Shown here: positions 16,429 to 40,156 of the stretch, piece after piece
Layout of the letters: each line of letters starts with the position of its first letter
How positions within the stretch are numbered: position 1 is the first letter of the stretch
NCBI RefSeq assembly: GCF_010550675.1
Contig: NZ_JAAGOA010000036.1
Coordinates: 1-42,517, forward strand
Length of the DNA stretch: 42,517 nucleotides
Source: Phytoactinopolyspora halotolerans
GTDB lineage: Bacteria; Actinomycetota; Actinomycetes; Jiangellales; Jiangellaceae
Direction of reading: 5' to 3'
Notes under the pieces: model-generated
Seen by the model: the letters and a program-made list of their open reading frames with translations, nothing else
What the model was told of the DNA's origin: nothing
Databases searched by the model: none
Made by a program: the position numbers and the translations under genes

Positions 16429-16434
<6 letters not shown>
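16371..16434 (+). promoter_or_regulatory. Promoter and IclR-type operator of the malate synthase-glcDEF operon
   Basis: TTGCCT (16371-16376) and TAGAGT (16394-16399), 17 bases apart, form a plausible promoter. Downstream of the predicted transcript start lies TTCCGCATTATGGAA (16420-16434), which matches 13 of 15 bases with the reverse complement of the operator before iclR. The ATG at 16429 is inside this palindrome. A bound regulator would act as a roadblock or cover the start region. Confidence 0.65.
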
Positions 16435-18035
<1,601 letters not shown>

Positions 18036-18036
<1 letters not shown>

Positions 18037-22179: not shown

Positions 22180-24831
22180 TCACTCACCGCGCTGTGTCAC
22201 CGCGACCAAGTCCGTGCTGTGCAGCACCACGTAGGGCTGGTTGGACAGCGTGTCGTTGAAGCCCGGGACGAAGATCGGCTGATACCCCGCCCGTCGTACC
22301 TCGGCGAAGAACATCAACGGGTACGACGACGCCGTGAACTCACCTGGAATCCACGCCGAGAAACACGTTCCCTGGCGGTCCATCACGACCTGGTGGAACG
22401 TCTCGGACTGATCGACGTGCCGGTAGTGAAGCTCGGCGGCGTCCGCCGGTGTGAGCGATCCGGTCTCCAGCCGCACCTCCAGCGGCTGACCCCGGGTGAA
22501 TCGTTCCGGCACGACGAAGCGCGCGTCGTCCAGCCGCCAGCGATCGTCACGGACAACCGGAGTCTTCGCGGTCGGCGGCGGTTCTCTTCGCAGCGCCTCG
22601 TCGCGTTCCAGGGAGAGCGCGAACAGATCTTCCCGCATCGCCGGGAGACGATCCGCCCAGTGACCGCGCTCGGAGACGCCCACACCGAAGGCAAGATCTT
22701 CCTGATACACGCCGGCGACGACATCCACGATCGCCGCGTACGACGCGTGCGCCGCTTCCAGCAGCCGAACCGTCTCCGAGATGGCCGTCGGATCACCCGT
22801 CCGGCGAAACAGCGCGTACTGCACCGCCGCACGGAACTTTCCGGCGAAGAAGCGGCCGAGCCGGGTCAGGACGTCCAGGTCGACGAGCGTCCGGTGCAGC
22901 TGCGCCGCCGGTGGTTCATCGAGCCCAGCTCGCACGCGGGTGATCGCCGCTTCGCCCGCGGCCACCCACCGCTCGATCCATGACGCCACCTCCAGCGGCG
23001 TGTACTTCCCGGTCAGCGTGCCCTCGAGCGCGTCGTCCGCGTACTCTCCGACGGCGTAGAACATCGTGGGGTCGAACGGCGACACACCCTCCCAGGTGCT
23101 GGGTGCCGGTGTGTCGAAGGCGTAGTGGGACGACTGGCGCCAGTACGAGATCGGCAGGTCGACGTACATCTCGGGCCAGTAGAAATTGTTCGCGCCACTC
23201 ACCCCGTGCACCACCGTGACCAGAGGGAGGATGCGGCTCAACGACGCGAGCGCCGTCTCGATCTCAGCGGCCGCCGCACCGTACTCGGCCCGCAGGAAGC
23301 GGCGCCACGTGTCGGGCGGAGCGTCGGGATCGTAGAGTAGCCGGCCCCAGAGCAGATACGTGTACCGGTACTTGCGCCAGTCGGCGACGCCGAGCCGGAG
23401 GTCGTCGCGCAGGTACGGATCGCGCCGGCCCGGTTCACCGGTACCCCTCCGGCCCTTGAAGGACAACGGCTCACAGAACTCGACCCCACGTGAACCGCCG
23501 AAGGTCGCGAAGCGTCCGAAGCCGCCCGCCATCTCCGGGTCACCCCACAACAGCAGCTTCTGGGTTCCCGGCCACACCCGGAACATGAACTCGACCGGAC
23601 GGCCCTCACTCAGGAAGTCCGCATAGCCGTAACGCGTGAGCCGGCGCTCGACATCGGTCACGCCTGCAACCTCCGCGTCGAAGCCGGGCCACGTCGCACC
23701 CTCGAGTTCACGGCGCCGGATCGATGCCTGGTGGTACGGGACGCCCATGTGTTCGGCCCAGTACTTTCCGGAGATCACCGGCCGGATTCCCGGCTTGTCG
23801 ACGGCGTCGAGGATGGCCTGGTCGATGCCCTTGGCGTGCATGTCGACCTCGATCGGCCGCCCGGCGTCGGACACGGCGTGGAAGACCTTGTCCCAGAACA
23901 CCTCGTGCCCTTGGTCGTGGATCCCGCCCTCGTAGTGCACCCGGAAGGTGAGCCCGTCGATCTCCGGGATCCGGGCGAGCAGCATCCGGACCGCGGCGGC
24001 GCAGTAGTCGGCATGGATCTCAGGGCTGATGCCGAGGATCGGATACCAGTGCCGCGAGTCGTACCCGTAGTCGTAGGCGTGATTCCACAGGCCCAGCTGG
24101 AAGCTCATTCCCCGTCGGCGCGTCTCTCGTGCGATGTGCGCGAGCGCAGCCAGATTGCGCTCACGTTCGGCCGCCGTCACCCCTTGAGCACGCACGTGGA
24201 AGCCGGGAACGTCGAGCAGGAAGGGATATGCGAAGCACAGGTAGTTGTCGCTCGCCGTGCGGCTCTCCACGCCGGTCCCGTAGTTGTACTGCATGCCGAA
24301 CGCCAAGTGGAAGCGGTTGAACCGCTGGGTCGCGAGGTGGTCGAGGTAGTCGGTCCAGAACGCCCGGTCATGGAACCACGCGGAGTCCTCGTGGACGCTG
24401 GCGAATATCCGCTGGATCCCGCGTACCGGAACCGCTGGGCGCTGCGTCAGTTGTGGTCCCGGTGTGAAGTCGCCGAGCCCGCCGGCGGCGAGGCGCCCGC
24501 AGAGCTCAGTGAGGGCGTAGGCGAACCCCACATCGTCCGGCGCCGCGACCACTACGCGCCGACCGCCGGCCTCATCGGCGACGATTCGCAGAGCGTACGA
24601 CTCGGGCTCGTGCGGCATATCCCGGAGTCCGGCCGCGACCGTGGACCTCGAGTCCTCCGCCCGGATCAGCGCCACCGTCAGCACACATTCTCGGTCATCG
24701 GCCAGCACGTCATCGGCGACTACGACGTGCGCGCCATGAGTCGTCGCCGCACCATCGAGACGGCCGATCGCCCAGCGTACCGGTGCCTGAGCGAGCACCT
24801 CGGGCGGACCGACGACGGCGACCCCCGTCAC
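22180..24831 (-). CDS. Uncharacterised large putative glycoside hydrolase (TIM-barrel type)
   Basis: An 883-residue cytosolic protein without signal peptide. Residues 1-115 resemble the alpha/beta accessory domain found before GH20 and GH67 barrels (VVAAPDDVGFAYALTELCGRLA). Residues 120-500 look like a TIM barrel: RGIQRIFASVHEDSAWFHD, DYLDHLATQRFNRFHLAFG, FQLGLWNHAYDYG, FRVHYEGGIHD and VDMHAKGIDQAI follow a strand-helix rhythm with acidic residues at strand ends. A helical region and a C-terminal beta domain (about 790-883) follow. I cannot place it in a characterised family. The GTG at 24831 overlaps the uidA stop by four bases, so it is the last gene of the operon. A role on glucuronic-acid-containing substrates is inferred from context. 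Confidence 0.7.
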   Translation of the reverse strand: MTGVAVVGPPEVLAQAPVRWAIGRLDGAATTHGAHVVVADDVLADDRECVLTVALIRAEDSRSTVAAGLRDMPHEPESYALRIVADEAGGRRVVVAAPDDVGFAYALTELCGRLAAGGLGDFTPGPQLTQRPAVPVRGIQRIFASVHEDSAWFHDRAFWTDYLDHLATQRFNRFHLAFGMQYNYGTGVESRTASDNYLCFAYPFLLDVPGFHVRAQGVTAAERERNLAALAHIARETRRRGMSFQLGLWNHAYDYGYDSRHWYPILGISPEIHADYCAAAVRMLLARIPEIDGLTFRVHYEGGIHDQGHEVFWDKVFHAVSDAGRPIEVDMHAKGIDQAILDAVDKPGIRPVISGKYWAEHMGVPYHQASIRRRELEGATWPGFDAEVAGVTDVERRLTRYGYADFLSEGRPVEFMFRVWPGTQKLLLWGDPEMAGGFGRFATFGGSRGVEFCEPLSFKGRRGTGEPGRRDPYLRDDLRLGVADWRKYRYTYLLWGRLLYDPDAPPDTWRRFLRAEYGAAAAEIETALASLSRILPLVTVVHGVSGANNFYWPEMYVDLPISYWRQSSHYAFDTPAPSTWEGVSPFDPTMFYAVGEYADDALEGTLTGKYTPLEVASWIERWVAAGEAAITRVRAGLDEPPAAQLHRTLVDLDVLTRLGRFFAGKFRAAVQYALFRRTGDPTAISETVRLLEAAHASYAAIVDVVAGVYQEDLAFGVGVSERGHWADRLPAMREDLFALSLERDEALRREPPPTAKTPVVRDDRWRLDDARFVVPERFTRGQPLEVRLETGSLTPADAAELHYRHVDQSETFHQVVMDRQGTCFSAWIPGEFTASSYPLMFFAEVRRAGYQPIFVPGFNDTLSNQPYVVLHSTDLVAVTQRGE

Positions 24832-26621
24832 TGCGTGGTCCCGGGCTTGCGGCCGTCGAGGCCCCGCCACCGGTCGCGAAGGGCGAAGGCGGCACTCTTC
24901 GGGCGGCGGTCGCGCGTGAAGATGCCTTTCTTGTTGCCGTCGACGCGGTGTACGCCGTTCGAGGTGGCGAAGTCGGCGAAGTTCCAGATCTGCTCGCCGA
25001 CGAACTGCGGGAAACGATCGAATACGCGATGGTGCATCACCAGATAGTCGCGCTGATACTCCTCGGTCCATGCCTGATCCCACACCGAATGCAGGCCCGG
25101 CTGAGTATCGGCGCCGTACTCGCTCATCATGATCGGCTTGCCCGTGCGTTCGACCCAGCTCTGGATGTCGCGCTCGAGGTAGTCTTCCGCGACGTCGAGC
25201 TCCCCAGTCGCGACGTACCAGCCGTAGTAGCGGTTCAGGCTGACGACGTCGAACAGGTCGATGATCTGGTCGTTCTTCGTGTTCGCGAACATCACGAGCG
25301 CATAGGTGAGAGGACGCGTCGGGTCGAGTTCGCGAGCGAGGGTCACCAGCGGCTCGAAGTACTCGCGCGCCCCGTCTTCGTTCGATGCGGGCTCGTTGGC
25401 GATGCTCCACATCACGACCGAGGGGTGGTTCTTGTCGCGTCCGATGAGCTCACGCAGGTGCTGCGCGTGCGCGGCACGCGTGCGGTCGTTCGCGTACTGC
25501 TCGGAGAACGTCGGGAAGGGCGGCTTGCCGGTCATTCCACCCACGACGCCCATGTTGAGCCCGACCGCCGCCGTCTCGTCGATGACGACGATGCCGTGCC
25601 GGTCGGCGAACTCGATGACCTCCTCGGCGTACGGATAGTGCGACGTGCGGAACGAGTTCGCGCCGATCCAGTCGAGGAGCTGGAAGTCGTGGACCAGGTA
25701 CGCGTCGTCGCTGCCCTTGCCTCGGACGGGGGTGTCCTCGTGCTTGCCGAAACCGGTGAAGTAGAAGGGCTCGCCGTTGATGAGAAACTCGTAGCCGCGC
25801 ACCTCGACCGTCCGCACGCCAACCGGGAGGGTGTAGCTGTCGACGACCTCGCCGCCGTCTGTCAGCTCGATCGTGAGGTCGTACAGGTAAGCGGCGCCGG
25901 GCTTCCACAGCACGACCTCGGGGATCTCGATCTGGCCGCCGGCACCCTCCGCTGCGCCGACGACCTCACCCTGGGCGTCGGCGATCCGCACGCGTACGTC
26001 GCCGGCCCCGACAGCCTTGACCTCGTAACGGACCGTTCCTGTGGTCCCCTCGAAGCCCGTCACGACCGTGACGTCATCGATGCGCAGCTTCGGCGTACTG
26101 TATAACCAGACGGATCGGGCGAGTCCCGCGTAGTTGTAGAAATCGTGGAAGTACGTCTGCTTCTTCCGGCCCGTGACGCCGACCTCGATCTTCCCCGGCG
26201 GGATCGTCTCGTTCGTGAGGTCCCCGCTGACGGCCACCGTGAGCCGGAACTCACCCCCGGCCGACACGACGTCGGTCAGGTCGATATCGAACGGTGTGTA
26301 GCCGCCGACGTGCTCCCCCATGAACGCGTCGTCGACGTACACACGCGCCGCATGCGTCGCCGCATCGAACCGGAGGAGGATCCGTTCGCCCGCCCACCCG
26401 CGCGGCACGCGCACGGTGCGCTGGTAATAGACCCATCCGACATGGTCGCGGATCTCAGGATCGGTGAAGAGATCGTTGAAGCTCGCGGGCACGGCAGCCT
26501 CCAGCGGCGTCTGGAGCCGCCCCGTCCACGGCTCGTCACCCACGCGCGAGTCGATCGCGAATCGCCAGATGCCGTCGAGATTGACGAGTTCGCGGGTCGG
26601 GGTGGGGATGGGCTTGAGCAT
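24828..26621 (-). CDS. uidA: Beta-glucuronidase, GH2 family
   Basis: A 597-residue enzyme that hydrolyses beta-D-glucuronides. Domains are a jelly-roll sugar-binding domain (1-180), an immunoglobulin-like domain (181-275) and a TIM barrel (276-597). Glu410 in WSIANEPAS is the acid/base and Glu501 in IMMSEYGAD the nucleophile. Tyr465/466 lie in LNRYYGWY. The NKKG motif at 563-566 contacts the uronic carboxylate and separates true glucuronidases from galactosidases. The active-site loop (about 356-380) is as long as in the E. coli enzyme, which fits small aglycones. There is no signal peptide, so it acts in the cytosol. GGAAGG precedes the ATG. It lies 61 bases after the GH1 gene and overlaps the next gene by four bases. 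Confidence 0.95.
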   Translation of the reverse strand: MLKPIPTPTRELVNLDGIWRFAIDSRVGDEPWTGRLQTPLEAAVPASFNDLFTDPEIRDHVGWVYYQRTVRVPRGWAGERILLRFDAATHAARVYVDDAFMGEHVGGYTPFDIDLTDVVSAGGEFRLTVAVSGDLTNETIPPGKIEVGVTGRKKQTYFHDFYNYAGLARSVWLYSTPKLRIDDVTVVTGFEGTTGTVRYEVKAVGAGDVRVRIADAQGEVVGAAEGAGGQIEIPEVVLWKPGAAYLYDLTIELTDGGEVVDSYTLPVGVRTVEVRGYEFLINGEPFYFTGFGKHEDTPVRGKGSDDAYLVHDFQLLDWIGANSFRTSHYPYAEEVIEFADRHGIVVIDETAAVGLNMGVVGGMTGKPPFPTFSEQYANDRTRAAHAQHLRELIGRDKNHPSVVMWSIANEPASNEDGAREYFEPLVTLARELDPTRPLTYALVMFANTKNDQIIDLFDVVSLNRYYGWYVATGELDVAEDYLERDIQSWVERTGKPIMMSEYGADTQPGLHSVWDQAWTEEYQRDYLVMHHRVFDRFPQFVGEQIWNFADFATSNGVHRVDGNKKGIFTRDRRPKSAAFALRDRWRGLDGRKPGTTQ

Positions 26622-26682: not shown

Positions 26683-27909
26683 TCACGCGAGGGCGTTTCG
26701 GCGGGCGACCTCTCCGAGCCAGCCGAGACTCGGTTTCGGAGTGCGCACGAACGTCTCGCGATCGACGGCGATAAGGCCGAAGGTCGGGCGCCAATGGCCC
26801 CATTCGAAGTTGTCCAGCAGCGACCAGTGCAGGTAGCCGCGCACATCGGCGCCGTCGGAGATCGCCGCCCGAAGTCCCTCGAGCGCCTCGCGCGTGTACC
26901 GGATCCGCTGCTCGTCGTCGCTGGTGGCGATGCCGTTCTCGGTGACGAGGATCGGCACGCCACCGGTCACCTCGTGGGCGTGGCGCACCGCGATCCCGAG
27001 CGAATCCGGTCGATACGCCGTGCCGACGAGGGTGTTGTCGGGGTGCGGCGGGTGCGGAACCGGACCGTCGGCGTCGACCTCCTGACTGGAGTACGCCTGT
27101 ACGCCTGCCCAGTCGTCGCCGCGGCTACCCTCCCAGTACACGTCCTCCTTGCCGTACCGGACCTCGAGGAGCTTCTCCTCACCACCCGGCGCGGCGGTGA
27201 GAGCGCCGGCGGCGACCGTCCAGCCGACCTTCGCGTCCGTGCGCTCCCGCAGGACATCGCGCGCGGCGTGGTGGACGCCGACGAACATCCGGCCGATCTC
27301 GGGGTCCGCGTAAGCCAAGAAGTTGCGAGCGTTGCGCTCTCGCTCTTCCTCGGACTGCTCGCGCTCGACGGTCGGGCTCGTCCACTCGCCGTCCGTGCCG
27401 GCGGACATCCGCTTCATCGCCGTCATGATCGCCGCCTGCATGTTCGGCTCGTTCATCGTCGCGACCCACTCGACGCCGTCGAGGATGCGCGTCGTCTCGG
27501 CCACGTACCGCACGAACCGGTCCGACGCGTCAGGCGCGGTCCATCCCCCTGCCTCGGCGAACCACCGCGGCGTCGTGAAGTGCTGCAGTGTCACGACCGG
27601 CGTGACACCGTGCTCGATACACGCGTCGATGACGCGCCGATAATGCGCGAGCGCGGCCCGGGAGACGTGCCCCGGGATCGGCTCGATGCGCGACCACTCC
27701 AGGCTGAACCTGTAGGTGTCGAGGCCCGCGTTCGCGAGGAGCGCGATGTCCTCGCGGTAGCGGTGGTAGCTGTCGCACGCGTCGAGCGAGAGCTCCATGC
27801 CCGGCGTCCGCTGCTCCTTCGCCCACCAGTCGCTGTTGACGTTGCCGCCTTCGATCTGGTGGCCGGACGTCGAGGCTCCCCAGAGGAAGCCAGGGGGAAA
27901 CTCGGTCAT
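26683..27909 (-). CDS. GH1 family beta-glycosidase
   Basis: A 408-residue cytosolic GH1 enzyme of the beta-glucosidase type. Marks are FLWGASTSGHQIEGGN at the start, FSLEWSRIEP, the acid/base Glu154 in ATMNEPNMQAA, the nucleophile Glu324 in ILVTENGIA, and LHWSLLDNFEWGHW near residue 360, which shapes the sugar-binding subsite. It is about 40 residues shorter than typical GH1 enzymes, mainly in surface loops. GGAAGGCGGA precedes the ATG. The gene follows the transporter ATPase by 22 bases and precedes uidA. It probably removes a beta-linked hexose from the imported compound; glucose or fucose specificity cannot be read reliably. Confidence 0.9.
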   Translation of the reverse strand: MTEFPPGFLWGASTSGHQIEGGNVNSDWWAKEQRTPGMELSLDACDSYHRYREDIALLANAGLDTYRFSLEWSRIEPIPGHVSRAALAHYRRVIDACIEHGVTPVVTLQHFTTPRWFAEAGGWTAPDASDRFVRYVAETTRILDGVEWVATMNEPNMQAAIMTAMKRMSAGTDGEWTSPTVEREQSEEERERNARNFLAYADPEIGRMFVGVHHAARDVLRERTDAKVGWTVAAGALTAAPGGEEKLLEVRYGKEDVYWEGSRGDDWAGVQAYSSQEVDADGPVPHPPHPDNTLVGTAYRPDSLGIAVRHAHEVTGGVPILVTENGIATSDDEQRIRYTREALEGLRAAISDGADVRGYLHWSLLDNFEWGHWRPTFGLIAVDRETFVRTPKPSLGWLGEVARRNALA

Positions 27910-27931: not shown

Positions 27932-28759
27932 TCATGCGTGCGCGGCGAGCAGCCGCTTGCGCTCCTCGCGCTTCTCGCGCTGCCGTGCCGGATCCGCGAC
28001 CGGGGCGGCCAGGAGAAGTCGCTGGGTATATGGGTGCTCGGGCGTCGATGTCACGGTCGCGGCATCTCCGGTCTCGACGAGATCCCCGCGATACAGCACG
28101 GCGACGCGGTGGCTGATATGCCGGACCACGCCCAGGTCATGCGAGACGAACAGATAGGAGACGCCCGTCTCGCGCTGGATGTCGACGAACAGATCGAGCA
28201 CCCGCGCCTGTGTCGACAGGTCAAGCGCCGAGACCGGCTCGTCGCACACGATCAGCTGGGGTCCCGGCGCGAGCGCCCTCGCGATCGCCACACGCTGACG
28301 CTGTCCGCCGGAGAATTCGCGAGGGAGGCGATCGATCGCGTCGTTCGGCAGGCCCACCTGATCGAGCAGGCTGCGCACCCGCGAACGCGCGTCCCGGCTC
28401 GTCGCCCCGTGCACCACAAGCGGTTCGGCGAGGATGTCTCCGATCGTCATCGACGGGTTGAGCGAGGTGTACGGGTCCTGGAACACGACCTGGATGTGGC
28501 TCGCGAGGCCGCGCCGGGCACGTCCGTGCAGGCCGCTGATCTCCTGGCTCGCGAAGCGGATCGATCCTCCCGACGGGCGGACGAGCCCGAGCACCGCGCG
28601 GCCGATGGTCGTCTTACCCGAACCGGATTCTCCCACCAGCCCGACGGTCTCGCCGTGGTCGACGTCAAGCGAGACACCGTGCAGGACCTCCACGTGCCTG
28701 GCTCGAAAACCCCTGCCCGGATAACTCACGCGGAGGTCTTCTAATTCCAGCAAGCTCAT
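27932..28759 (-). CDS. ABC transporter ATP-binding protein, OppF/DppF type
   Basis: A 275-residue ATPase of the oligopeptide/dipeptide importer class. It has Walker A GLVGESGSGKTT, Q-loop QVVFQDPYTSLNP, signature FSGGQRQRVAIARAL, Walker B QLIVCDEPVSALD and H-loop FVSHDLG. The C-terminal extension with EHPYTQRLLLAA is the Opp/Dpp tail (oligo_HPY). Its ATG overlaps the stop of the permease-ATPase fusion by four bases. It supplies the second nucleotide-binding domain of the importer. Opp-type systems also carry oligosaccharides and glycosides in actinobacteria and thermophiles, which suits the hydrolases that follow. Confidence 0.93.
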   Translation of the reverse strand: MSLLELEDLRVSYPGRGFRARHVEVLHGVSLDVDHGETVGLVGESGSGKTTIGRAVLGLVRPSGGSIRFASQEISGLHGRARRGLASHIQVVFQDPYTSLNPSMTIGDILAEPLVVHGATSRDARSRVRSLLDQVGLPNDAIDRLPREFSGGQRQRVAIARALAPGPQLIVCDEPVSALDLSTQARVLDLFVDIQRETGVSYLFVSHDLGVVRHISHRVAVLYRGDLVETGDAATVTSTPEHPYTQRLLLAAPVADPARQREKREERKRLLAAHA

Positions 28760-30570
28760 GATGCGACTCCCTTGACAGCGGCCGGTGGGTCTGTGCGCAC
28801 CGCATCCTCGTCGAGGATCGAGCCGAGCAGCATCCGCGTGTACTCGTGTCGCGGGGCTCCGAAGATCTCCTCGGCCGCCCCGTTCTCGACGATCTCGCCC
28901 TCCTTCATGACGGCGATCCGATCGCAGATGTCGGCGACGACGCCGAAATTGTGCGTGACCAGGAGCACGGCCATGCCGAGTTCATGCTGCAGATCACGCA
29001 ACAGATCGAGGATCTCGGCCTGTACGGTCACGTCGAGCGCGGTCGTCGGCTCGTCGGCGATGAGGAGCTTCGGCCGGCTCGCGACCGCGCCCGCGATGAG
29101 CACGCGCTGCGCCATTCCGCCCGAGATCTCATGCGGATACGCGTCGAAGGTGCGCTGCGGATCGACGATGCCGCACCTGTCGAGCAGCGCGATCACGCGC
29201 GCCTTCGCATCCTTCCTCGGCATGCTGGTCGCCGCGCGCAGGCCCTCGACCAGCTGCGAACCGACGCGGAAGGACGGATCGAGATTCGACATCGGTTCCT
29301 GGGGGATGTATGCGATCGCGCTACCGCGAAGAGCAGCCATCGACGTGTCATCGAGGCCGAGAAGCTCGCGCCCATCGAAGCGGATCGACCCGCCCGTGAT
29401 GACCGCCTCCGACGGGAGGACACCGAGCGTCGAGAATGCCGTCTGGGTCTTCCCGGATCCCGATTCGCCGACGAGCCCCAAGACGTCTCCCGGTGCGAGG
29501 GACAGATTCACTCCGCGCACGACTTCGTTGGGCGCACCGTCGACGCCCGGATAGGCGATGCCGAGGTCGCGGATCACCAGGAGCGCGTCCGGATCGGTCG
29601 GGCCGTCCCGCTCGACGTCTGCCACGACGCGTTGGCCGGCGCCGACCTTCTTCGCCTTCGGCTTCGATCCCTCGAGCGTGTCGCGCAGCGCGTTCCCGAG
29701 CAGCACCAGCGATGCCGTGATGACTCCCAGGAGCAGGCTCGGCCAGAGGAACTGGGCCGGCGCGACGTAGAGGTTCCGGAAGCCGGAGGAGATCATCGCG
29801 CCGAAGCTCGGAATCTCGGTGGACCCGACGCCCAGGAAGGCGAGGCCCGACTGCACGGCGATGGCCGACCCGGCCATGAACGCGGCGGCGATGATGATGG
29901 GGCCGCGGACGATGGAGAGCACGTGGCGCCCGAGGATGCGGACGTTCCCGAGGCCCGACACTCGCGCGGCGTCGACGTACAGCTCGTTCTTCACACCGAG
30001 CACGAGGTTGCGCACGATGCGGTAGATGCCTGGCGCCAGCAGGAAGCCGAAGACGAACATCGTGGCGCGGTAGTCACCCCCCGTGACGGGCATGAGGATG
30101 ATGAGCAATAGCACACCGGGCAGCGTCATGAGGAGGGCGAAGGTCCACTCCGTGATGGACTGTGTGGCGCGATTGAAGTACCCGCCGACGAGGCCGCCCG
30201 TGACGCCGACGATGAGCGCGACCGTCGTTCCGATCAGGGCAGAGATCGCCGCCGTGTTGATGGAGTGCAGAAGACGGCTGAAGATGTCACGCCCGGACTC
30301 GTCGCCGCCGAGCAGGTAGCCCGATGTTCCGACAGGCGCGTTGACCATGCTCAGGTCGGCGTCGTTCGGTCCGTGTGGCGCGATGAGCGGAGTCAAAGCA
30401 CCTATGAGGAAGATCGCGGCGAGGAGACCGATCGTGATCGCCGCCTGTGGGTCCCGGATGACCTTCTTCCACGTGGGCGTCCGCTGGGAGGCGTCCGCCC
30501 CCGCAGTGATGACGTGTTCGGTGCTGTGTGTCCGGACGGTCTGCGTCGTGGGGTCGTCGGAGGTGCTCAA
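28756..30570 (-). CDS. Fused ABC transporter permease (DppC type) and ATPase (DppD type)
   Basis: A 604-residue fusion. Residues about 35-310 form a DppC-like permease with five or six membrane helices and the cytoplasmic EAA-like loop DAARVSGLGNVRILGRHVL. After a Lys-rich linker, residues about 325-595 form an ABC domain with Walker A GLVGESGSGKTQT, signature ISGGMAQRVLI, Walker B LLIADEPTTALDV and the tail APRHEYTRMLL. Such fusions are known in actinobacteria and replace two separate genes. The start is a TTG at 30570 that overlaps the preceding permease stop by four bases, with GAGG just upstream. Together with its neighbours it gives a complete importer: two permeases, two ATPases and a binding protein. 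Confidence 0.93.
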   Translation of the reverse strand: MSTSDDPTTQTVRTHSTEHVITAGADASQRTPTWKKVIRDPQAAITIGLLAAIFLIGALTPLIAPHGPNDADLSMVNAPVGTSGYLLGGDESGRDIFSRLLHSINTAAISALIGTTVALIVGVTGGLVGGYFNRATQSITEWTFALLMTLPGVLLLIILMPVTGGDYRATMFVFGFLLAPGIYRIVRNLVLGVKNELYVDAARVSGLGNVRILGRHVLSIVRGPIIIAAAFMAGSAIAVQSGLAFLGVGSTEIPSFGAMISSGFRNLYVAPAQFLWPSLLLGVITASLVLLGNALRDTLEGSKPKAKKVGAGQRVVADVERDGPTDPDALLVIRDLGIAYPGVDGAPNEVVRGVNLSLAPGDVLGLVGESGSGKTQTAFSTLGVLPSEAVITGGSIRFDGRELLGLDDTSMAALRGSAIAYIPQEPMSNLDPSFRVGSQLVEGLRAATSMPRKDAKARVIALLDRCGIVDPQRTFDAYPHEISGGMAQRVLIAGAVASRPKLLIADEPTTALDVTVQAEILDLLRDLQHELGMAVLLVTHNFGVVADICDRIAVMKEGEIVENGAAEEIFGAPRHEYTRMLLGSILDEDAVRTDPPAAVKGVAS

Positions 30571-31508
30571 TGGACCCTCGCTTTCGGGTTCAGCCAGCCG
30601 TTGAGGATGTCGGTGACGAGGTGGACCACGGTGACGAGGGCCACGCCGAACACGGAGATGCCGAGGATGACGGGGATGTCGCCCTGAAGAGAGGCGTTGA
30701 ACGCGTAGCTACCGAACCCAGGGAGCGCGAACACGTTCTCGATGATGAGCGCCGCACCGAACATCTGGATGAACTCCAGCGACATCACGGTGAGGGCCGG
30801 GCTGCCGGCGTTGCGCAGCGCATGCTTGTAGACGATCGATCTCGACGAGATGCCTCGTGTGCGCAGCGTGCGAACATAGTCGCGGTTGAGCTCGTCGATC
30901 ATCCGTCCGCGCACCTGGGCCGACATGTTCGCGACGCCGGGGATCACCAGCACGATCACGGGGATCGTGATACTGCGCAGCCACCCGAGGGTGTCGTCGC
31001 CGAACCGCACGTATCCCGTCGCAGGGAGCCAGCCGAGCTCGACGCCGAAGAGGACGACGAGTCCGATCGCGAGCAGCAGCGCAGGGAAGATGTGTCCGAC
31101 CAGCGAGATCCCCTGGGCGAAGCGGTCGATGACACCGCCGTGCGAGGCAGCCCACACGCCGAGCAGCACCGACAAGATCGCCGTGATCAGCAGCGCGGGA
31201 ACGATCAGCGACAAGGTGACGGCGAGCCGGTCGACCACGGCCGAGCGCACAGGCAGCGACGTGAACGCGGACTGACCGAGGTCGCCCTGGACGGCGTGCC
31301 AGATCCACTCGACATACTGCACGATGACCGGCCGGTCCCATCCGCGCGCCTCCACCAGCGCCGCGGTGGACTCGGGAGTCGCCCCTTGGCCGAGCATCGT
31401 GCGGGCGGTGTCGTCGAATGAACTGCTGATGAGCAGGAAGACGATCAACAGGATGACGAGCGCGAGCATCACGCCCGCTGCCAGTCGTCTGAGGATGTAG
31501 AGGGTCAT
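30567..31508 (-). CDS. ABC transporter permease, DppB type
   Basis: A 313-residue inner permease with six membrane helices, beginning with the family's TLYILRRLAAGVMLALVILLIVFLL-type first helix (residues 1-27). A periplasmic loop with GWDRPVIVQYVEW follows, and the cytoplasmic contact segment reads DYVRTLRTRGISSRSIVYKHALRNA. The end, DILNGWLNPKARV, is typical. I start at the ATG at 31508; the longer frame to 31724 would run through the binding-protein gene and has no membrane or family character. It lies 82 bases after the binding-protein gene, with a strong stem-loop between. Confidence 0.93.
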   Translation of the reverse strand: MTLYILRRLAAGVMLALVILLIVFLLISSSFDDTARTMLGQGATPESTAALVEARGWDRPVIVQYVEWIWHAVQGDLGQSAFTSLPVRSAVVDRLAVTLSLIVPALLITAILSVLLGVWAASHGGVIDRFAQGISLVGHIFPALLLAIGLVVLFGVELGWLPATGYVRFGDDTLGWLRSITIPVIVLVIPGVANMSAQVRGRMIDELNRDYVRTLRTRGISSRSIVYKHALRNAGSPALTVMSLEFIQMFGAALIIENVFALPGFGSYAFNASLQGDIPVILGISVFGVALVTVVHLVTDILNGWLNPKARVH

Positions 31509-31530
31509 CTCAATACTCTCGTGAGGCGGA

Positions 31531-31564
31531 GAGGTCCAGTGAGCCGGCCGGCCCGCTGGACCTC
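31531..31564 (-). other. Strong stem-loop between binding-protein and permease genes
   Basis: GAGGTCCAG (31531-31539) pairs perfectly with CTGGACCTC (31556-31564), and the 16-base interior contains self-complementary GCCGGCCGGC. It follows the binding-protein stop in the same transcript. Such hairpins often stabilise the upstream mRNA or stop part of the transcription, so that more binding protein than permease is made. Confidence 0.6.
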
Positions 31565-31590
31565 CGGTGGGCCGGCCGTGCTGTCGGTCA

Positions 31591-33144
31591 TTATTCGAAG
31601 CCGAATGCGCGGATGGTCGGCGGCAGCCCACCCACGGTCGAGTACGTGATACCGTCGCGCGCTGCCCACGTCGTGCCGCCGAAGGCGATCGGGACCTCGA
31701 ACGCCTGCTCAACCGCGTATGCATTGACCTCGCGGTACGTCGGTATCGCGTCCTCGTAGTCGACGGTCGTGTTGATCACGCCGAACAATTCGTCGAGGGT
31801 CGGATCGGAATGGTTCTGCGGGTTCGAGAAACCACCGGGGACGAAATGAGAGAACGCGTCCGACGGATCGGAATTGAACCCGGCTACCTGGAAGGACAGG
31901 CCATAGTCGCCCGACATGTGGGCCGATTGCACCTGCTGCGGCGGAACGGACACCCACTCAAGGTTCAGGCCGACATCGGAGAAGGCCTGCGAGATCGTCG
32001 GTTCGAACGCGGTCGACAGGAACGTGCTCGGGATCTCGAAGCTCTCCCCCACGTATCCGGCTTCTTCGACGAGTTCGCGCCCACGCTCGGGGTCATACTC
32101 GTAGAGTTCCTCCAGGGCCGGGTCGTAGACCTCGCCTTGGGGATTGAAGATCTGCACCGTCGGGGAGCCGAGACCGCCCAGCAATCCCTCGACGAACGCC
32201 TCGCGGTCGATCGCGTAGTTCAGGGCCTGACGAACGCGCACATCGCCGAGCGCGGGCCACGTCTCGCCCGCTCGATCGAGGATCTCCAGCACGAACACGA
32301 CGTTCGCCTCGATCTGGCTGAGGGTGAAGGCGCTCTCGTCGAGCTGGCCGAGCATTCGCTGCTGCACGGTACCGGCGTCGATCTCTCCGGCCTGAAGTGC
32401 GTTGAGCTGGGCGGTGGGATCGGGCATCACGCGCACCGTGAATGTCGAGACCGGGATCGCGTCGGCGTTCCAATAGTCCTCGCGCTTCTTGAGGACGTAG
32501 GTGTTGTCCGGCACGGTGTTCGCGACATCGAGCTCGAACGGTCCCGACCCGACCGGGTCGGTTGCCGTGCGCTCGTCGTCGAGCGTGTCGGGGTGGCCGA
32601 TCGCGCCCGCCCCGAGCGCGATGTTGGAGAGGAACGTCGGGTCGAAACTGTCGAAGTGCACCTCGACGGTGCTCGGGTCCACGGCGGTAACGTCTGTGAC
32701 CTGGGAGTACTTCGACTGGACGGGACCCGGCGTCTCACGTGTGCGTTCCATCGACGCGACGACCGCATCTGCGTCGACCGGCGTGCCATCGCTGAAGGTC
32801 ATGCCGTCCCGAAGGGTGAGCGTCAGCAGTGTGCCGTCCTCGTTGTATTCCCAGCGTTCGGCCGCGTTCGGGATCAGCTCGCCCGTTTCCGGGTCGCGCG
32901 CCAGCAGCGTGTCCAGCACCCCCGACCATACGAACGTCTGCTGCCCATCGATGAGCTGGGCAGGATCGAGGGAGTTCGGGCCGGACTGGACCGCGATCGT
33001 CAAGCTACGGTCAGCGGACGGGTCGCCGTCCGGCGGAGCGGTGTCGGAATCTGCTCCGCAACCGGCGAGGGCCAGTGCGAGAGCGGTGGCCGTGGCCGCG
33101 AGTGCAGACGCTCCGCGGCGCTTGGTCCGACGAGTCGAGTACAT
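31591..33144 (-). CDS. ABC transporter substrate-binding lipoprotein, family 5
   Basis: A 517-residue extracytoplasmic solute-binding protein of the peptide/nickel/oligosaccharide (SBP_bac_5) class. The signal peptide ends in the lipobox LALAGC (lipid on Cys29). Family segments are SLTIAVQSGPNSLDPAQ, a DGMTFSDGTPVDADAVVASMER motif region, YWNADAIPVSTFTVRVM and DVRVRQALNYAIDREAFV. AAAGGAGA precedes the ATG. It is the first gene of the transporter operon and has a LacI-controlled promoter just upstream. It is clearly related to the next binding protein (33473-34999), which has no permease of its own. The ligand is inferred to be an oligosaccharide or glycoside from the hydrolases in the operon. 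Confidence 0.93.
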   Translation of the reverse strand: MYSTRRTKRRGASALAATATALALALAGCGADSDTAPPDGDPSADRSLTIAVQSGPNSLDPAQLIDGQQTFVWSGVLDTLLARDPETGELIPNAAERWEYNEDGTLLTLTLRDGMTFSDGTPVDADAVVASMERTRETPGPVQSKYSQVTDVTAVDPSTVEVHFDSFDPTFLSNIALGAGAIGHPDTLDDERTATDPVGSGPFELDVANTVPDNTYVLKKREDYWNADAIPVSTFTVRVMPDPTAQLNALQAGEIDAGTVQQRMLGQLDESAFTLSQIEANVVFVLEILDRAGETWPALGDVRVRQALNYAIDREAFVEGLLGGLGSPTVQIFNPQGEVYDPALEELYEYDPERGRELVEEAGYVGESFEIPSTFLSTAFEPTISQAFSDVGLNLEWVSVPPQQVQSAHMSGDYGLSFQVAGFNSDPSDAFSHFVPGGFSNPQNHSDPTLDELFGVINTTVDYEDAIPTYREVNAYAVEQAFEVPIAFGGTTWAARDGITYSTVGGLPPTIRAFGFE

Positions 33145-33472: not shown

Positions 33473-34999
33473 TCACTCAGAGACATCGAACACCCGCAGA
33501 TCTTGCATGGACAGGGCGCTCCCGACATACTCGACGCCCTCAACCGTCGCCCAGATCGTGTCGAGCCACAGCGCGGGTGAGAACCACGCGTTGTCTATTC
33601 CGAACTGGTTGATCCGGCTGTACAACTCGTCGGCCTCGCCCAGGTCGACTTCGGCCGCGACGTCCTCGATGAGCTCGTTGAGCTCGGGATCGCTGGAACC
33701 GAACGGGTTGTTCGATCCCTCCGGGGCAAAGTACTGGGCCACCACGCGAGACGACGGCGCCGCACCCCCGATGTTCCAGTAGGCAGCCCAGTCGGTCGAC
33801 TGCCCGGAACTCTGGGCTGGAACTGGATCCCACTGGAGCGTGATCCCGATGTCGGCGAACGCCTGCGAGAGCGTCGCCTGAAACTGCATCGACATCACGT
33901 TCGCGGGCATCGCGAGGGTGAACCCGTCGCCGTAGCCGGCTTCCGCCATCAGCTCACGCGCCGCTTCGACGTCGTACGGATACGCCTGCTCCCCCTCTGG
34001 CAGGTACGCGGAGCTCAGGGGATTGAAGACCTGTGCGGTCGGCACGCCGAACCCGTAGTTCAACGACTCGACCATCCCCGCCCGGTCGAGCGCCATGTTG
34101 ATCGCCTGACGCACACGCACGTCACCGAGCGCGGGGACGACTTCGCCGTCCCGGTCCGCCAGCACGATCTGCGCCAGGCTCGCGCCCTCGACCTCGGTCA
34201 GCGACAGGCCGGCGTCCACCGCACGCTCGGCCAGTTCGCCGTTGACGGTCGCCGCGTCCAGCTCACCCGCGATCATCGCGTTGAACCGCGCGGTCTGGTC
34301 CGTGATCGGCCGCACCGTCACCGTCTCGAACGGATACTCCTCGGCGTTCCAGTGGTCGTCGCGGCGGTCGAGCACGTACACGACGCCGTCGTCGGTCTGG
34401 TCGGCGTTGAGCGTGTAGGGCCCGGATCCCACCGGGTTGAGCTGGGTCTGCGGATCGTCGAGCGTCTCGGGATCGCCGACGACACCCGCGGCCTGTGCGA
34501 GCGAGGTGAGCAGGTTGTCGTCGGGCTCGCTCAGGTTCAGCACGACGGTATGGTCGTCGGGCACCTCGATCGAGTCGATCGCCGAGAGGTTTCCCTGTTG
34601 GGGACCGGGCGTGGTTCTCGTCCGTTCGAGCGTCCCCCGCACGTCCTCGGCTCGGACCGGTTCTGAGTCCGAGAACGACAGGTCGTCACGGAGGTGCAGC
34701 GTCAGAGTGAGCGCGTCGTCGGAGTACTCCCAGCTCTCGGCGGCTGCTGGCTGGAGCTCTCCCTCGTGATCGAGGTACAGCAAGGTATCGAAAAGCGCGC
34801 CCCAGACGTACCGCTGGACGCCGTCGTGAAGTTCGGCGGGATCGAGGGAGTTCGGCGGCTGCGGCACCCCGAACACGAGTGTGGCGTCCCCTTGCGGGCT
34901 CGCGGACCCGCCTCCCTCAGAACTGCAGGCGCTCGCCACGAGCAGCGCTCCGACCATCAGGGCGCTGCCGGTGGTGCGACCAACGGATCGTTTCGGCAT
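33473..34999 (-). CDS. ABC transporter substrate-binding lipoprotein, family 5 (second copy)
   Basis: A 508-residue SBP_bac_5 lipoprotein with signal peptide and lipobox VASAC (Cys25). It has the same framework as its neighbour: VFGVPQPPNSLDPAELHDG, HLRDDLSFSDSEPVRAEDVRGTLER, HWNAEEYPFETVTVRPI and DVRVRQAINMALDRAGMV. It probably shares the single set of permeases and ATPases downstream, extending the ligand range. AAAGGAGA precedes the ATG. It follows the 2-hydroxyacid dehydrogenase by 79 bases, so it is likely transcribed from the GntR-type promoter at 36.1 kb and not from the LacI promoter that starts after it. Confidence 0.92.
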   Translation of the reverse strand: MPKRSVGRTTGSALMVGALLVASACSSEGGGSASPQGDATLVFGVPQPPNSLDPAELHDGVQRYVWGALFDTLLYLDHEGELQPAAAESWEYSDDALTLTLHLRDDLSFSDSEPVRAEDVRGTLERTRTTPGPQQGNLSAIDSIEVPDDHTVVLNLSEPDDNLLTSLAQAAGVVGDPETLDDPQTQLNPVGSGPYTLNADQTDDGVVYVLDRRDDHWNAEEYPFETVTVRPITDQTARFNAMIAGELDAATVNGELAERAVDAGLSLTEVEGASLAQIVLADRDGEVVPALGDVRVRQAINMALDRAGMVESLNYGFGVPTAQVFNPLSSAYLPEGEQAYPYDVEAARELMAEAGYGDGFTLAMPANVMSMQFQATLSQAFADIGITLQWDPVPAQSSGQSTDWAAYWNIGGAAPSSRVVAQYFAPEGSNNPFGSSDPELNELIEDVAAEVDLGEADELYSRINQFGIDNAWFSPALWLDTIWATVEGVEYVGSALSMQDLRVFDVSE

Positions 35000-35078: not shown

Positions 35079-36107
35079 TCACCTCTTCCGAGGAGGCGGA
35101 ATACTGCCGCTGAAGATGTCTCGTGGGCTCAGCTGATTGAGAAGCTGCTCCCCCGCTCGGTAGCGGCGGATGTTCTCCACGATCGTGTCGATGGACCGCT
35201 GCGTGCGATCGGGGAGCTTCGGTGTTTGATGAGGGGTGATCAGCACGTTGGGCGCGTCCCACAGGGGCGCGTCGGAAGGCAACGGCTCGGGGTCGGTGAC
35301 ATCGAGTCCCGCGCCGGCCACCACCCCCGAGTGCAGCGCATCTACCAGCGCGTCCTGGTCGATCAGCCCGCCGCGTCCGAGGTTGATGACGTAGGCTCCC
35401 GGCCGCAGCCGAGCGAGGCGCTCTCGCGACAGAATGTGATACGTCTCGTCGCTCAGATGGGCGGCGAGCATCACGACATCGGTGTGCTCAAGCATGGCAT
35501 CGACCGAGTCACCCGCGTCCGCGGCATAGAGTCGATCGACCTCGTCGCCCGCTTCCCCGGCCCGACGGCGATACGCGACCACACGCATGCCGAACGCCTT
35601 GCCGAGCTTGGCCATCTCGCGGCCTGTATGTCCGTAACCGATGATGCCGAGGGTCTTCCCCCACAACGCCAAGCGGTCGGCATAGCCCGAGATCCCACCC
35701 CATTCGTGCGCGTCCTGTTTCTCGAGGAGTCGTCGCGCATCGAACGTCAGCGCGAGGGCGAAGTAGAACGCATGCTGCGCGAGCGCGGGAGCGGATCGCC
35801 CGGCCGATCCCGTCACGATGAGGCCGCGCTCGAACACCTCGGGGCGCGCGGAACGGGTGAGCCCTGCATGGTCACAGTGCACCCACGTAAGACTCGGCGC
35901 TTCAAGGAACCGGTCGTCGATATCGCCCCAGATGACGGCGACGTCGGCGCGCTCGAGCTCACGATCGAACTGCTCCTGCTCCCGTGGATGCAAAGCCACG
36001 ACATCCGCGGGAGCGAAGGCACCTCGCAGCCGCTCGATCTCGTCCGGCTCCCAGAGCAGCGACATCACCACACGCTCGATCTCACGCCCCTGCCCGTTGC
36101 TCGGCAT
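35079..36107 (-). CDS. D-isomer-specific 2-hydroxyacid dehydrogenase
   Basis: A 342-residue NAD(P)-dependent oxidoreductase. The Rossmann motif is GIIGYGHTGREMAK (glycines at 157-162). Catalytic residues are Arg245 in INLGRGGLID, Glu274 in DPEPLPSDAP and His293 in LITPHQTPK. The His is followed by Gln where many relatives have Phe or Trp. The family reduces 2-ketoacids or glyoxylate-like compounds. In this locus it could handle a ketoacid from uronate breakdown, but this is a guess. The ATG at 36107 has only a weak ribosome site; an ATG at 36065 is an alternative. It heads the unit with the second binding protein and is divergent from the GHL6-type gene. Confidence 0.88.
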   Translation of the reverse strand: MPSNGQGREIERVVMSLLWEPDEIERLRGAFAPADVVALHPREQEQFDRELERADVAVIWGDIDDRFLEAPSLTWVHCDHAGLTRSARPEVFERGLIVTGSAGRSAPALAQHAFYFALALTFDARRLLEKQDAHEWGGISGYADRLALWGKTLGIIGYGHTGREMAKLGKAFGMRVVAYRRRAGEAGDEVDRLYAADAGDSVDAMLEHTDVVMLAAHLSDETYHILSRERLARLRPGAYVINLGRGGLIDQDALVDALHSGVVAGAGLDVTDPEPLPSDAPLWDAPNVLITPHQTPKLPDRTQRSIDTIVENIRRYRAGEQLLNQLSPRDIFSGSIPPPRKR

Positions 36108-36243: not shown

Positions 36244-36272
36244 GACTGGCTGCAATGCAAGGAGGCATGCAC

Positions 36273-38318
36273 GTGAGCACGACGCTCGACGAGACCCCAT
36301 CGACGGCGAAGTGGTGGACGTACCCGTTCGCCGTCTTCCAGACCAACCTCCAGGAGATAGACGCCGGTCTCGATGTCGAGGCTGCTCTCGACGCGATCCA
36401 GGCGCACGGTGCGAACGCCTGGTTGCTGAACACCGGCGGCATCATCTCCAACTTTCCGACGGAGCTCCCGTTTCAGACACGCAATCCCCACCTCGAGGAG
36501 AGGCCGTCCGGCGACCTTGTCGGCGACGCCGTCGAGGCCGCACACCGACGCGGCGTACGTGTCATCGCACGATTCGATCTTTCAAAGGTCGCCGCTCCGA
36601 TCGCGGCCGCCCATCCGGAGTGGTGCTTCCGTACCCACGACGGCGAGCCGCAGGTGTACAACGACCTATGGAGCATGTGCCCGTCCGCGGGGTACTACCA
36701 GGAGCGCTCCTTCGACATCATCGACGAAGTGCTCGACCGCTACCCGATCGATGGCGTGTTCTTCAACTGGTTCAACTTCAACATCATCGACTACAGCCGC
36801 AAGCTGTACGGCGTGTGCCACTGCGCCGCGTGCGTGCGCCGGTACCGGCAATGGAGCCACGGCGAGTCGTTGCCCGTCGACACTCGAAGCGCCGAGATCC
36901 GCACATGGAGCCGGTTCACGGCAGAGGTGCTCGCCGACCTCAACACAAGGATCACGGCGCACATCCACGCCCGGGCCGAGGATGTACTCGTCGTCCTCGG
37001 AAAGCAGGCGCACATGCGGTACGCGGAGTCGAACAAGATGTTCGGCCGCGACCTCTGGCCGCACAGGACAGGCGAGGATGTCAGCGAGCTCCGGCATCAC
37101 GAGCCGCCTGTCCCTGCCCTCGTGAACAGCGTCAGTTTCGTCGACATGCCGTACCGCATGGCGGGCGAGGAACCGTCGCATTTCGCCCAGTACCTCATCC
37201 AGGGAATCGCCCGCGGCGGTATGCCCTCCACCTACATCATGGGAGCACCCGGCCGCATCCCCTACCCGTCCCTGGAAGCCGCCGGCGAGATCACGAGATT
37301 CTTCCGGCGCCACGAGGACGACGTCTACGGACGACTCGCACCGGCGGCACGCATCGCTCTCGTGAAGGCACCGCCGGCACAGCTCGGCTCGGCGGCATCC
37401 GAGGAGTACCACGGGACGTACTCGATGCTGCAGCGGGCGCAACGCCCCTTCGACGTCATACCGCTCGATCAGATCGCACAGCTGGAGGCCGCGGGTCGGC
37501 TGGCTCGATTCGACCTCATCGTCCTCCCCGATGTCGGCGCCCTCGAATCCCAGGCGGCCGCCCTCGACGCGTACGTGCGCGCCGGCGGGAACGTCCTGAC
37601 CACGGGGGCATCCGGCTTCACCGAGGACGGAACCGCCGAAATGCGCACCTCGCCCGCACACGCTCGCGTCGGCGATATCCGATGTGGGCAGGATCTGTGG
37701 TCGACGTACGCGACGCTGGCTCCGCAGGATCGTGCCGCATCGCACCACTTCGACGCACCGATCGTCCCCGTGCTCGGAAAGCTGCACGACTGCGCGTGGG
37801 CCGACAGCACCCTGCGGCAGGGAGTCATGCTTCCCCCTGCCCCCTTCGGACCGCCGGAGAAGGCTTACGGCCACCTCCCGTCCGAGGAGCCCGCGTACGG
37901 CAGCCTCCCGGATCCGGGCGGCGGCAGCGTCACAGTTCTACCGTGGACGATCGGGCAGTCGTACCGCGAGATCGAGACCACACCGCCCCAGGAGATGTTT
38001 CTCCGTATCGTCGACGCCGCCGCTCCGCCGCGGCTGCGCTTCGACGCGCCGGAGAACGTGGAGGCGATCGTCGGCACGGCAGGCGACGATCTCATCATCC
38101 ACCTGGTGAACCTCACGGGAGCGAGCCGGCGTGGGTTCCGCCCTCCGGTCGCCGTCACGGGCCTGCGCGTTGAGCTTCCTGAGACAACGCGCGATCTGCG
38201 AGCGGATGCCCTGGTCGCAGGTGTGCCGTTGGATGCCGGCGTGGGCGGCGTGCTCGAGCTCGGGACGCTTCGTGACTTCGAGGTTCTGCGCATCAGGGGA
38301 GCCGCGTCGCTTGCATAG
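36273..38318 (+). CDS. GHL6-type putative glycosyl hydrolase with trimerisation-like domain
   Basis: A 681-residue cytosolic protein. The N-terminal half (about 10-370) is a TIM barrel resembling the hypothetical glycosyl hydrolase 6 (GHL6) family: PFAVFQTNLQEID, VRVIARFDLSK, HPEWCFRTHDGEPQVYND, IDGVFFNWFNFNI. A Cys-x-Cys-x2-Cys cluster, CHCAAC, follows a barrel strand and could bind metal. The middle (about 390-580) is a flavodoxin-like domain like the trimerisation domain of GH42 galactosidases (RFDLIVLPDVGALESQ, AGGNVLTTGASG). A small beta domain ends it. The start is the GTG at 36273, seven bases after AAGGAGG; the ATG at 36267 is too close. The substrate is unknown. Its neighbours suggest part of the same glycoside. 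Confidence 0.75.
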   Translation: MSTTLDETPSTAKWWTYPFAVFQTNLQEIDAGLDVEAALDAIQAHGANAWLLNTGGIISNFPTELPFQTRNPHLEERPSGDLVGDAVEAAHRRGVRVIARFDLSKVAAPIAAAHPEWCFRTHDGEPQVYNDLWSMCPSAGYYQERSFDIIDEVLDRYPIDGVFFNWFNFNIIDYSRKLYGVCHCAACVRRYRQWSHGESLPVDTRSAEIRTWSRFTAEVLADLNTRITAHIHARAEDVLVVLGKQAHMRYAESNKMFGRDLWPHRTGEDVSELRHHEPPVPALVNSVSFVDMPYRMAGEEPSHFAQYLIQGIARGGMPSTYIMGAPGRIPYPSLEAAGEITRFFRRHEDDVYGRLAPAARIALVKAPPAQLGSAASEEYHGTYSMLQRAQRPFDVIPLDQIAQLEAAGRLARFDLIVLPDVGALESQAAALDAYVRAGGNVLTTGASGFTEDGTAEMRTSPAHARVGDIRCGQDLWSTYATLAPQDRAASHHFDAPIVPVLGKLHDCAWADSTLRQGVMLPPAPFGPPEKAYGHLPSEEPAYGSLPDPGGGSVTVLPWTIGQSYREIETTPPQEMFLRIVDAAAPPRLRFDAPENVEAIVGTAGDDLIIHLVNLTGASRRGFRPPVAVTGLRVELPETTRDLRADALVAGVPLDAGVGGVLELGTLRDFEVLRIRGAASLA

Positions 38319-39451: not shown

Positions 39452-39584
39452 TCGCGACGGCGACCGGGCGGCGGATTGCGTCAGTCGGCACAGACCCTGC
39501 CACGCCATCGGTCACCCAGGCAGAGACACACACCGCTCGTGGCGGCAGATCAAGGCACGCTCCGACAACTGTCGGCGCCCGCCG

Positions 39585-40058: not shown

Positions 40059-40096
40059 CACAGACCTCCGAGACTCCCGGATTGTGAAGGGACAGC

Positions 40097-40139
40097 GTAT
40101 GTAGGTAGCATACACACCTTAAATTGTATGTACCATACA
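40097..40139. promoter_or_regulatory. MarR-type operators between marR-like gene and MFS pump
   Basis: TGTATG-TAC-CATACA (40125-40139) is a perfect inverted repeat, and GTATG-N7-CATAC (40097-40113) is a second. On the minus strand TACAAT (40123-40128) is a good -10 for the regulator gene and lies within the first repeat. The AT-rich patch stands out from the surrounding DNA. Confidence 0.65.
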
Positions 40140-40156
40140 CATGTCGTCGGAGCGCC

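Follow-up and report, generated by a model that had tools for sequence, protein, structure and literature searches.

Within the window, a 42,517-nucleotide stretch of contig NZ_JAAGOA010000036.1 of Phytoactinopolyspora halotolerans, a minus-strand gene encodes an 883-residue protein that sequence comparisons and structure models clearly place as a distant relative of glycoside hydrolase family 138 (GH138). We favor, with moderate confidence, assignment of this protein as an intracellular exo-alpha-uronosidase of an unclassified GH138-like family, belonging to the same fold group as GH67 and GH115. Under this assignment, the protein would hydrolyze an alpha-linked uronic acid in the cytoplasm, with Glu301 and Glu360 as its putative catalytic residues. 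The gene, its overlapping neighbor and the codons of these residues are located as follows.

22180..24831, minus strand: subject gene, 883-residue GH138-like glycoside hydrolase homologue; GTG start, 883 codons plus stop
24828..26621, minus strand: uidA-like GH2 beta-glucuronidase gene (NF007538, 861.7 bits against a cut-off of 544)
23929..23931, minus strand: codon for the candidate general acid Glu301, which follows barrel strand 4 and is the same in all 19 members compared
23752..23754, minus strand: codon for Glu360, a candidate catalytic carboxylate in the motif KYWAEH directly behind barrel strand 6; likewise the same in all 19 members

Kinship to GH138

Pfam contains no family that matches the window protein at threshold, with ATR13 (0.024) and DUF4838 (0.12) the only sub-threshold matches. 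A single NCBIfam family is matched, NF049878 (alpha-D-galacturonidase), at E 7.8e-06. The same model weakly matches all 13 members of alignment A1 (best E 1.7e-11), which comprises the window protein, 11 actinobacterial relatives and record L015, at 39-91% identity to the window protein. When the Protein Data Bank is searched with the window sequence by itself, the GH138 enzyme BPa0997 appears at just E 0.36; with the A1 profile, this becomes E 4.5e-12. With A3, a profile that adds rhizobial, Marinovum and Haladaptatus sequences to A1, BPa0997 is found at E 2.1e-22 over profile positions 20-318 and 466-752, and the next match is GH84 at 4.6e-05. A profile restricted to the barrel still returns BPa0997 first (2.4e-04), and hhalign of A3 to BPa0997 alone gives a probability of 98.2% and E 4e-14 across 552 columns.

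Analysis of the predicted structure leads to the same family. The top five Foldseek rows for the full-length model are all GH138 (9.8e-22 to 1.6e-20), followed by GH84, GH115 and GH67 (1.1e-11 to 1.9e-09). Thus, in the comparison with GH67, GH115 and GH20 that the preliminary description had proposed, GH138 ranks ahead of GH84, GH115 and GH67. VIA-align superimposes 588 residues on 6HZG with a Z of 17.2 and a root-mean-square deviation of 5.9, while the next unrelated row has a Z of 14.7 over 230 residues. For the barrel-only model, GH138 is again the top family (3.4e-09), with the glucosaminidase GcnA behind it (8.3e-07). The N-terminal domain, (beta/alpha)8 barrel and helical domain are collinear between the window protein and GH138.

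Because the NF049878 matches, the profile searches and Foldseek agree, the protein is clearly a distant relative of GH138, with fold and family well supported by sequence and model alike. It has its descent, and probably its chemistry, in common with GH138. As the window protein scores 24.2 bits against an NF049878 cut-off of 1300 and is only ~20% identical to GH138, it is not filed under GH138 itself; by NCBIfam score and identity, it is described as belonging to a new, unclassified sister family. The earlier statement that no characterized family could be assigned therefore holds insofar as the protein is an unclassified glycoside hydrolase-like protein; it does not hold in the sense of a full orphan, given the clear link to GH138. 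The GH138 model matched none of 396 actinobacterial genomes at 1e-6, which limits the bridges between the families to BPa0997 and two Haladaptatus paralogues.

Domain architecture

The full-length AlphaFold2 model, built from 13 sequences, has a mean predicted local distance difference test score (pLDDT) of 70.2 and a predicted template modeling score of 0.64; a second model contains the barrel alone, at a mean pLDDT of 61. The N-terminal domain resembles GH20b and GH84, with Glyco_hydro_20b matched in 3 of 13 members (best E 0.0073) and GH84 matches covering A1 profile positions 37-139. The strands of a (beta/alpha)8-type barrel follow at ~138-144, 173-178, 243-248, 291-296, 327-330, 349-356, 414-419 and 450-455, similarly placed in both models. 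In the full model, a helical domain (~480-750) then leads into a C-terminal beta domain (~770-872). This architecture bears out three proposals of the preliminary description: a GH20/GH67-like N-terminal alpha/beta domain, a C-terminal beta domain and, between them, a barrel-like strand-helix rhythm whose strands end in acidic residues.

Candidate catalytic residues

A comparison of 19 members, from which L005, L010 and a split copy in L026 were left out, identifies 16 invariant positions: W249, R297, E301, D330, K334, K356, E360, H367, R372, E375, R400, D405, R418, W420, D431 and E554. Three further residues, H299, H332 and E454, are shared by 16 of the 19. Both E301 and E360 are also invariant in A1, which includes L005 and L010.

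Glu360 corresponds to Glu361 of BPa0997, both by hhalign with the single BPa0997 sequence and by MAFFT with 22 sequences. The family motif at this position is KYWAEH, with KYWCES in Haladaptatus, and Glu361 of GH138 lies in HKYNGES. The molecule name of 6HZG includes E361S; in the printed alignments, position 361 is Ser in the 6HZE and 6HZG sequences and Glu in 6HZF_B. The mutant name in this entry suggests that E361 has a catalytic role in GH138. An hhalign comparison with GH67, low-scoring as a whole (15% probability, E 0.0018), places Glu301 without gaps on the Glu of the motif KADSEGQPGP. The Glu of this strand-4 motif, KADSEGQ, is presumably the general acid of GH67. The preliminary description had looked to a barrel with two facing carboxylates as support for an enzyme; a candidate pair is present here at the level of sequence and strand position.

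Two more distant paralogues lie on a Haladaptatus plasmid (L024 18292-20409 and L027 884-3058, of 705 and 724 residues). These are nearer GH138, at 23% identity and with NF049878 scores of 138.2 and 136.8 bits, and form a branch of the superfamily that is either distant or altered.

The gene and its family

The open reading frame (ORF) of 883 residues, reported previously with no strand given, is complete and lies on the minus strand; a plus-strand reading of 22180-24831 was rejected for its internal stops in frame 1. Judged by comparison, it is a real gene rather than a chance ORF, because a relative in Phytoactinopolyspora endophytica (record L002) is 91% identical, and actinobacteria, alphaproteobacteria and archaea have homologues that match most of its length at 28-64% identity. 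The copy in a congener's genome (G413) is 92% identical. Plus-strand ORFs of 254 and 438 residues overlap the gene in other frames. The reported four-base overlap with uidA is exact: GTGA (24828-24831), read directly, is common to the TGA stop of the uidA-like gene and the GTG start of the subject gene.

The 11 actinobacterial relatives come from a tblastn scan of genome contigs; in one of them the match begins at residue 130, yet the ORF encodes 857 residues. The family is sparse. Across a phylum sample, 2 of 396 genomes matched, namely the source genome and a GH20 enzyme; the latter (G182, L013), recognized by eye and matched only over residues 31-178, was not counted as a member. In a class sample, 5 of 393 genomes matched, 3 at full length and 2 in the N-terminal ~140 positions only. 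Records L019 and L020 were likewise not counted, their matches being confined to profile positions 13-139 and 22-139. Sampling at the level of the taxonomic family (Jiangellaceae) gave matches in 3 of 22 genomes.

On plasmids, tblastn identified 11 records, four from Rhizobium, three from Haladaptatus, two from Neorhizobium and one each from Sinorhizobium and Marinovum; the matches span 88-91% of the query, with identities of 30-41%. The family is thus carried by large plasmids in rhizobia of pea, clover, lentil, soybean and Galega; several of its actinobacterial hosts are named as endophytes. Wherever a plasmid record carries annotation, the relative is labeled 'hypothetical protein'. In Rhizobium johnstonii TP60 (L026 11932-14375) the gene is in two pieces and is possibly a decayed copy. 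No relatives appeared in the phage collection or in one scan of viral contigs. Among the papers listed on GH138, galacturonidase, rhamnogalacturonan II (RG-II), alpha-glucuronidase and enolase/Rhizobium topics, no title concerned this family, and a characterized member may exist elsewhere in the literature; the listed papers matching the codes of partner-enzyme structures were all unrelated.

Recurrent neighbors

Neighboring genes were searched in 20 records (the window, L002-L012, L015 with short flanks, and seven of the 11 plasmid records) at a threshold of E 1e-12 with at least 120 aligned residues. L024 and L027 represent one plasmid, and L025 and L028 carry no annotation. Family-5 solute-binding proteins are the most widespread, in 13 of 20 records (window, L002-L007, L010, L021, L022, L025, L026, L028). 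GHL6-type proteins occur in 11 (window, L003, L004, L005, L010, L012, L022, L023, L025, L026, L028), annotated as alpha-amylase family in L022 and beta-galactosidase in L023, and MR/MLE enzymes of the enolase superfamily in 10 (L003, L009, L011, L012, L022, L023, L024/L027, L025, L026, L028). A 2-hydroxyacid dehydrogenase is present in 7 (window, L003, L006, L007, L010, L023 and, weakly, L022; one is just 28% identical) and a glycerate kinase in 3 (L003, L004, L010).

By comparison, a uidA-like gene occurs in just 4 of 20 records (window, L002, L004, L005), and it overlaps the subject gene only in the window and its congener L002. The preliminary description over-read this overlap in taking it as the sign of a partner role; uidA was rejected as the main partner, the three leading neighbors being more widespread.

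In five records, an MR/MLE gene directly follows the family member on its strand, at a distance of 8 bases in L003, 19 bases in L011 and 2 bases in L012, and with a 4-base overlap in L009 and L023. Chance adjacency is unlikely, provided that other genomes resemble that of P. halotolerans, because this 7.3-Mb genome has just 22 MR/MLE genes over the cut-off; it has 4 GHL6 genes over theirs. The best family scores of the MR/MLE proteins tested are to galactonate, talarate/galactarate and arabinonate dehydratases, each falling far short of the cut-off. Their nearest solved structures (3TCS, 3U4F, 3T8Q, 3T9P for L009 and 3N4E for L022) are named only as racemase or enolase-superfamily proteins, with no stated function.

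The Haladaptatus plasmid concentrates these genes: within ~33 kb, three close copies and the pair of distant paralogues are accompanied by four MR/MLE genes, a GH88 gene and two MFS transporters. An alpha/beta hydrolase lies between two solute-binding proteins in L006 (5596-6330, Pfam match) and L007 (5422-6114, same blastp cluster), and is possibly an esterase acting on the same substrate.

In the window, the genes upstream of the uidA-like gene are arranged as follows.

26683..27909, minus strand: GH1 family glycosidase (PF00232, E 5.5e-63)
27932..31724, minus strand: oligopeptide-type ABC permease and ATPase genes, three ORFs, recognized by eye from translations
31591..33144, minus strand: solute-binding protein, family 5 (PF00496, E 1e-64)
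33473..34999, minus strand: solute-binding protein, family 5 (PF00496, E 5.7e-66)
35079..36107, minus strand: D-2-hydroxyacid dehydrogenase (PF02826, E 4e-50), 70% identical to the L003 copy
36267..38318, plus strand: GHL6-type glycosidase-like protein (PF14871, 93.1 bits), 45% identical to that of L003; start chosen by eye
38429..39451, plus strand: LacI-type regulator (PF13377, E 2e-32, and PF00356)

The blastp clusters of the three ABC ORFs comprise 7, 8 and 7 loci, window included. On the other side of the subject gene, 16429-22129 holds malate synthase A and then glycolate oxidase-like subunit genes (GlcD by eye). The last of these (20768-22129), with CCG and Fer4 domains, ends 50 bp from the subject gene on the opposite strand. 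L002 likewise has the malate synthase gene and the GlcD-like one. Two minus-strand ORFs, 9573-10826 (417 residues) and 39553-40530 (326 residues), have no Pfam match at 0.001.

Proposed function and mechanism

If the protein is an exo-alpha-uronosidase, its action likely involves: import of short acidic oligosaccharides by the family-5 solute-binding ABC importer; binding of the terminal residue in the barrel; and cleavage of the alpha-glycosidic bond by Glu301 and Glu360, which would release galacturonic or glucuronic acid. Companion glycosidases, of the GHL6 type and, in this genus, GH2 and GH1, may remove other sugars. The freed sugar acid would then be catabolized via uronate isomerase or, in many relatives, via the MR/MLE enzyme and 2-hydroxyacid dehydrogenase. 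Consistent with a cytoplasmic location, no hydrophobic N-terminal segment or signal peptide is seen by eye. The sugar-acid context favors a uronate: MR/MLE neighbors, GH88 in the Haladaptatus cluster, overlap with a GH2 beta-glucuronidase gene, and two UxaC genes elsewhere in the P. halotolerans genome. With these UxaC genes and a distinct true GH67 gene, P. halotolerans is probably able to use uronates and would not need the subject enzyme as a xylan alpha-glucuronidase. The previous suggestion of an alpha-glucuronidase thus survives in broader form, an alpha-uronidase-type activity being the most likely reading.

Several observations weigh against this assignment. At the level of the family, they include the low identity to GH138 already described, and the substrate is a prediction within a fold group that also includes the GH84 and GH20 hexosaminidases. 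At the active site, Glu301 aligns one position away from Glu294 of BPa0997, which we take to be a catalytic residue of GH138. When the two Haladaptatus paralogues are added to the hhalign template, the E360-E361 pairing is lost and the loop is placed differently. Both paralogues have Ser where the family has E360, and in one of them the E301 position is not Glu either, so that the fold does not guarantee this chemistry. The active-site loops are of low confidence in both models, the barrel-only model having brought no gain there. In the gene context, the copy in the window has no MR/MLE gene next to it, and the best match in its genome to the L003 partner enzyme is 33% identical. The importer type also varies: 7 of 20 records have no family-5 solute-binding protein at threshold, with a family-1 binding protein in L015 and, by annotation, a sugar-type ABC system in L023 and MFS in Haladaptatus. 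Finally, L008, like L015, has none of the searched partner proteins.

The choice of sugar is where an alternative has most room. A glycoside hydrolase of the same fold could act on a non-uronic sugar, for example as a hexosaminidase- or galactosidase-like exo-enzyme, with the sugar-acid neighbors handling a different part of the substrate, for instance a glycerate or aldonic acid end. The N-terminal domain and barrel that GH84 and GH20 have in common with the protein would fit, as would the glycerate kinase of 3 records and the GHL6/GH42-like, GH1, LacZ-type GH2, GH3 and GH43 genes of these loci, families that act mostly on neutral sugars. We consider this rather doubtful, since GH138 is the closest family in each sequence or fold comparison with a significant match, the next fold neighbors include two alpha-glucuronidase families, and sequence similarity to GH84 and GH20 is limited to the first ~180 positions. 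The protein could instead be a divergent true GH138 member, an alpha-1,2-galacturonosidase acting on RG-II-type fragments together with the overlapping beta-glucuronidase. Homology from the N-terminal domain through the barrel to the helical domain and the kept E361 position agree with this, and, according to PMC7939467, the RG-II enzyme set of Bacteroides thetaiotaomicron contains the beta-glucuronidase BT0996 as well as the alpha-galacturonidase BT0997. Its distance from the GH138 model, the scarcity of uidA-like neighbors, and hosts such as Haladaptatus and Marinovum, which in our judgment are not obvious RG-II degraders, make it improbable. Least likely is a protein with a dead barrel that binds sugars or regulates but does not hydrolyze. 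The Ser of the Haladaptatus paralogues indicates that the superfamily may include forms that are inactive or altered, but invariance of both Glu and of many strand-end polar residues in all 19 members, across bacteria and archaea, would be unlikely without catalysis.

One bolder reading is tentatively raised by the MR/MLE neighbors. Here, a new glycoside hydrolase family of bacteria and archaea might be coupled to orphan enolase-superfamily enzymes in an undescribed pathway, in which an acidic or aldonic acid-ended glycoside would be imported and hydrolyzed and the released sugar acid directly dehydrated or isomerized, by-passing the classical uronate isomerase route. This would link a GH138-like fold to enolase-superfamily enzymes whose closest structures lack a stated function. 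As the family is carried by rhizobial plasmids and endophyte-named actinobacteria, it may contribute to the use of acidic glycans by plant-associated microbes. The two predicted catalytic residues and substrate class are open to simple assay.

Comparison with known systems

GH84 and GH20 share with the window protein the N-terminal alpha/beta domain and barrel fold, but sequence similarity ends near the start of the barrel and the fold scores fall below those of GH138. For GH20, the catalytic domain is unmatched, and the likeness consists of the weak N-terminal Glyco_hydro_20b match alone. GH67 and GH115 form, with GH84, the next fold group (Foldseek 5.7e-11 to 1.9e-09). In contrast to this likeness in fold, neither PF07488 nor any other GH67 Pfam model matches at E up to 1, and the hhalign probability is low; GH115 likewise gives no Pfam match up to E 1 and resembles the protein by fold only.

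GH138 is represented by BPa0997 (6HZE, 6HZF, 6HZG) and by BT0997, which PMC7939467 describes as an alpha-galacturonidase acting on the alpha-1,2-linked galacturonic acid of RG-II. The window family differs from it in the strand-4 Glu, one position off, in overall identity, and in the strand 7-8 region, where R418, W420, D431 and E454 are unmatched in BPa0997; its gene context is also distinct, consisting of importer and sugar-acid genes. Nonetheless, GH138 is the closest known system by profile and by fold, with three domains collinear over ~550-590 residues and a K-Y-x-x-E at strand 6 that places Glu361 of BPa0997 at Glu360 of the window protein.

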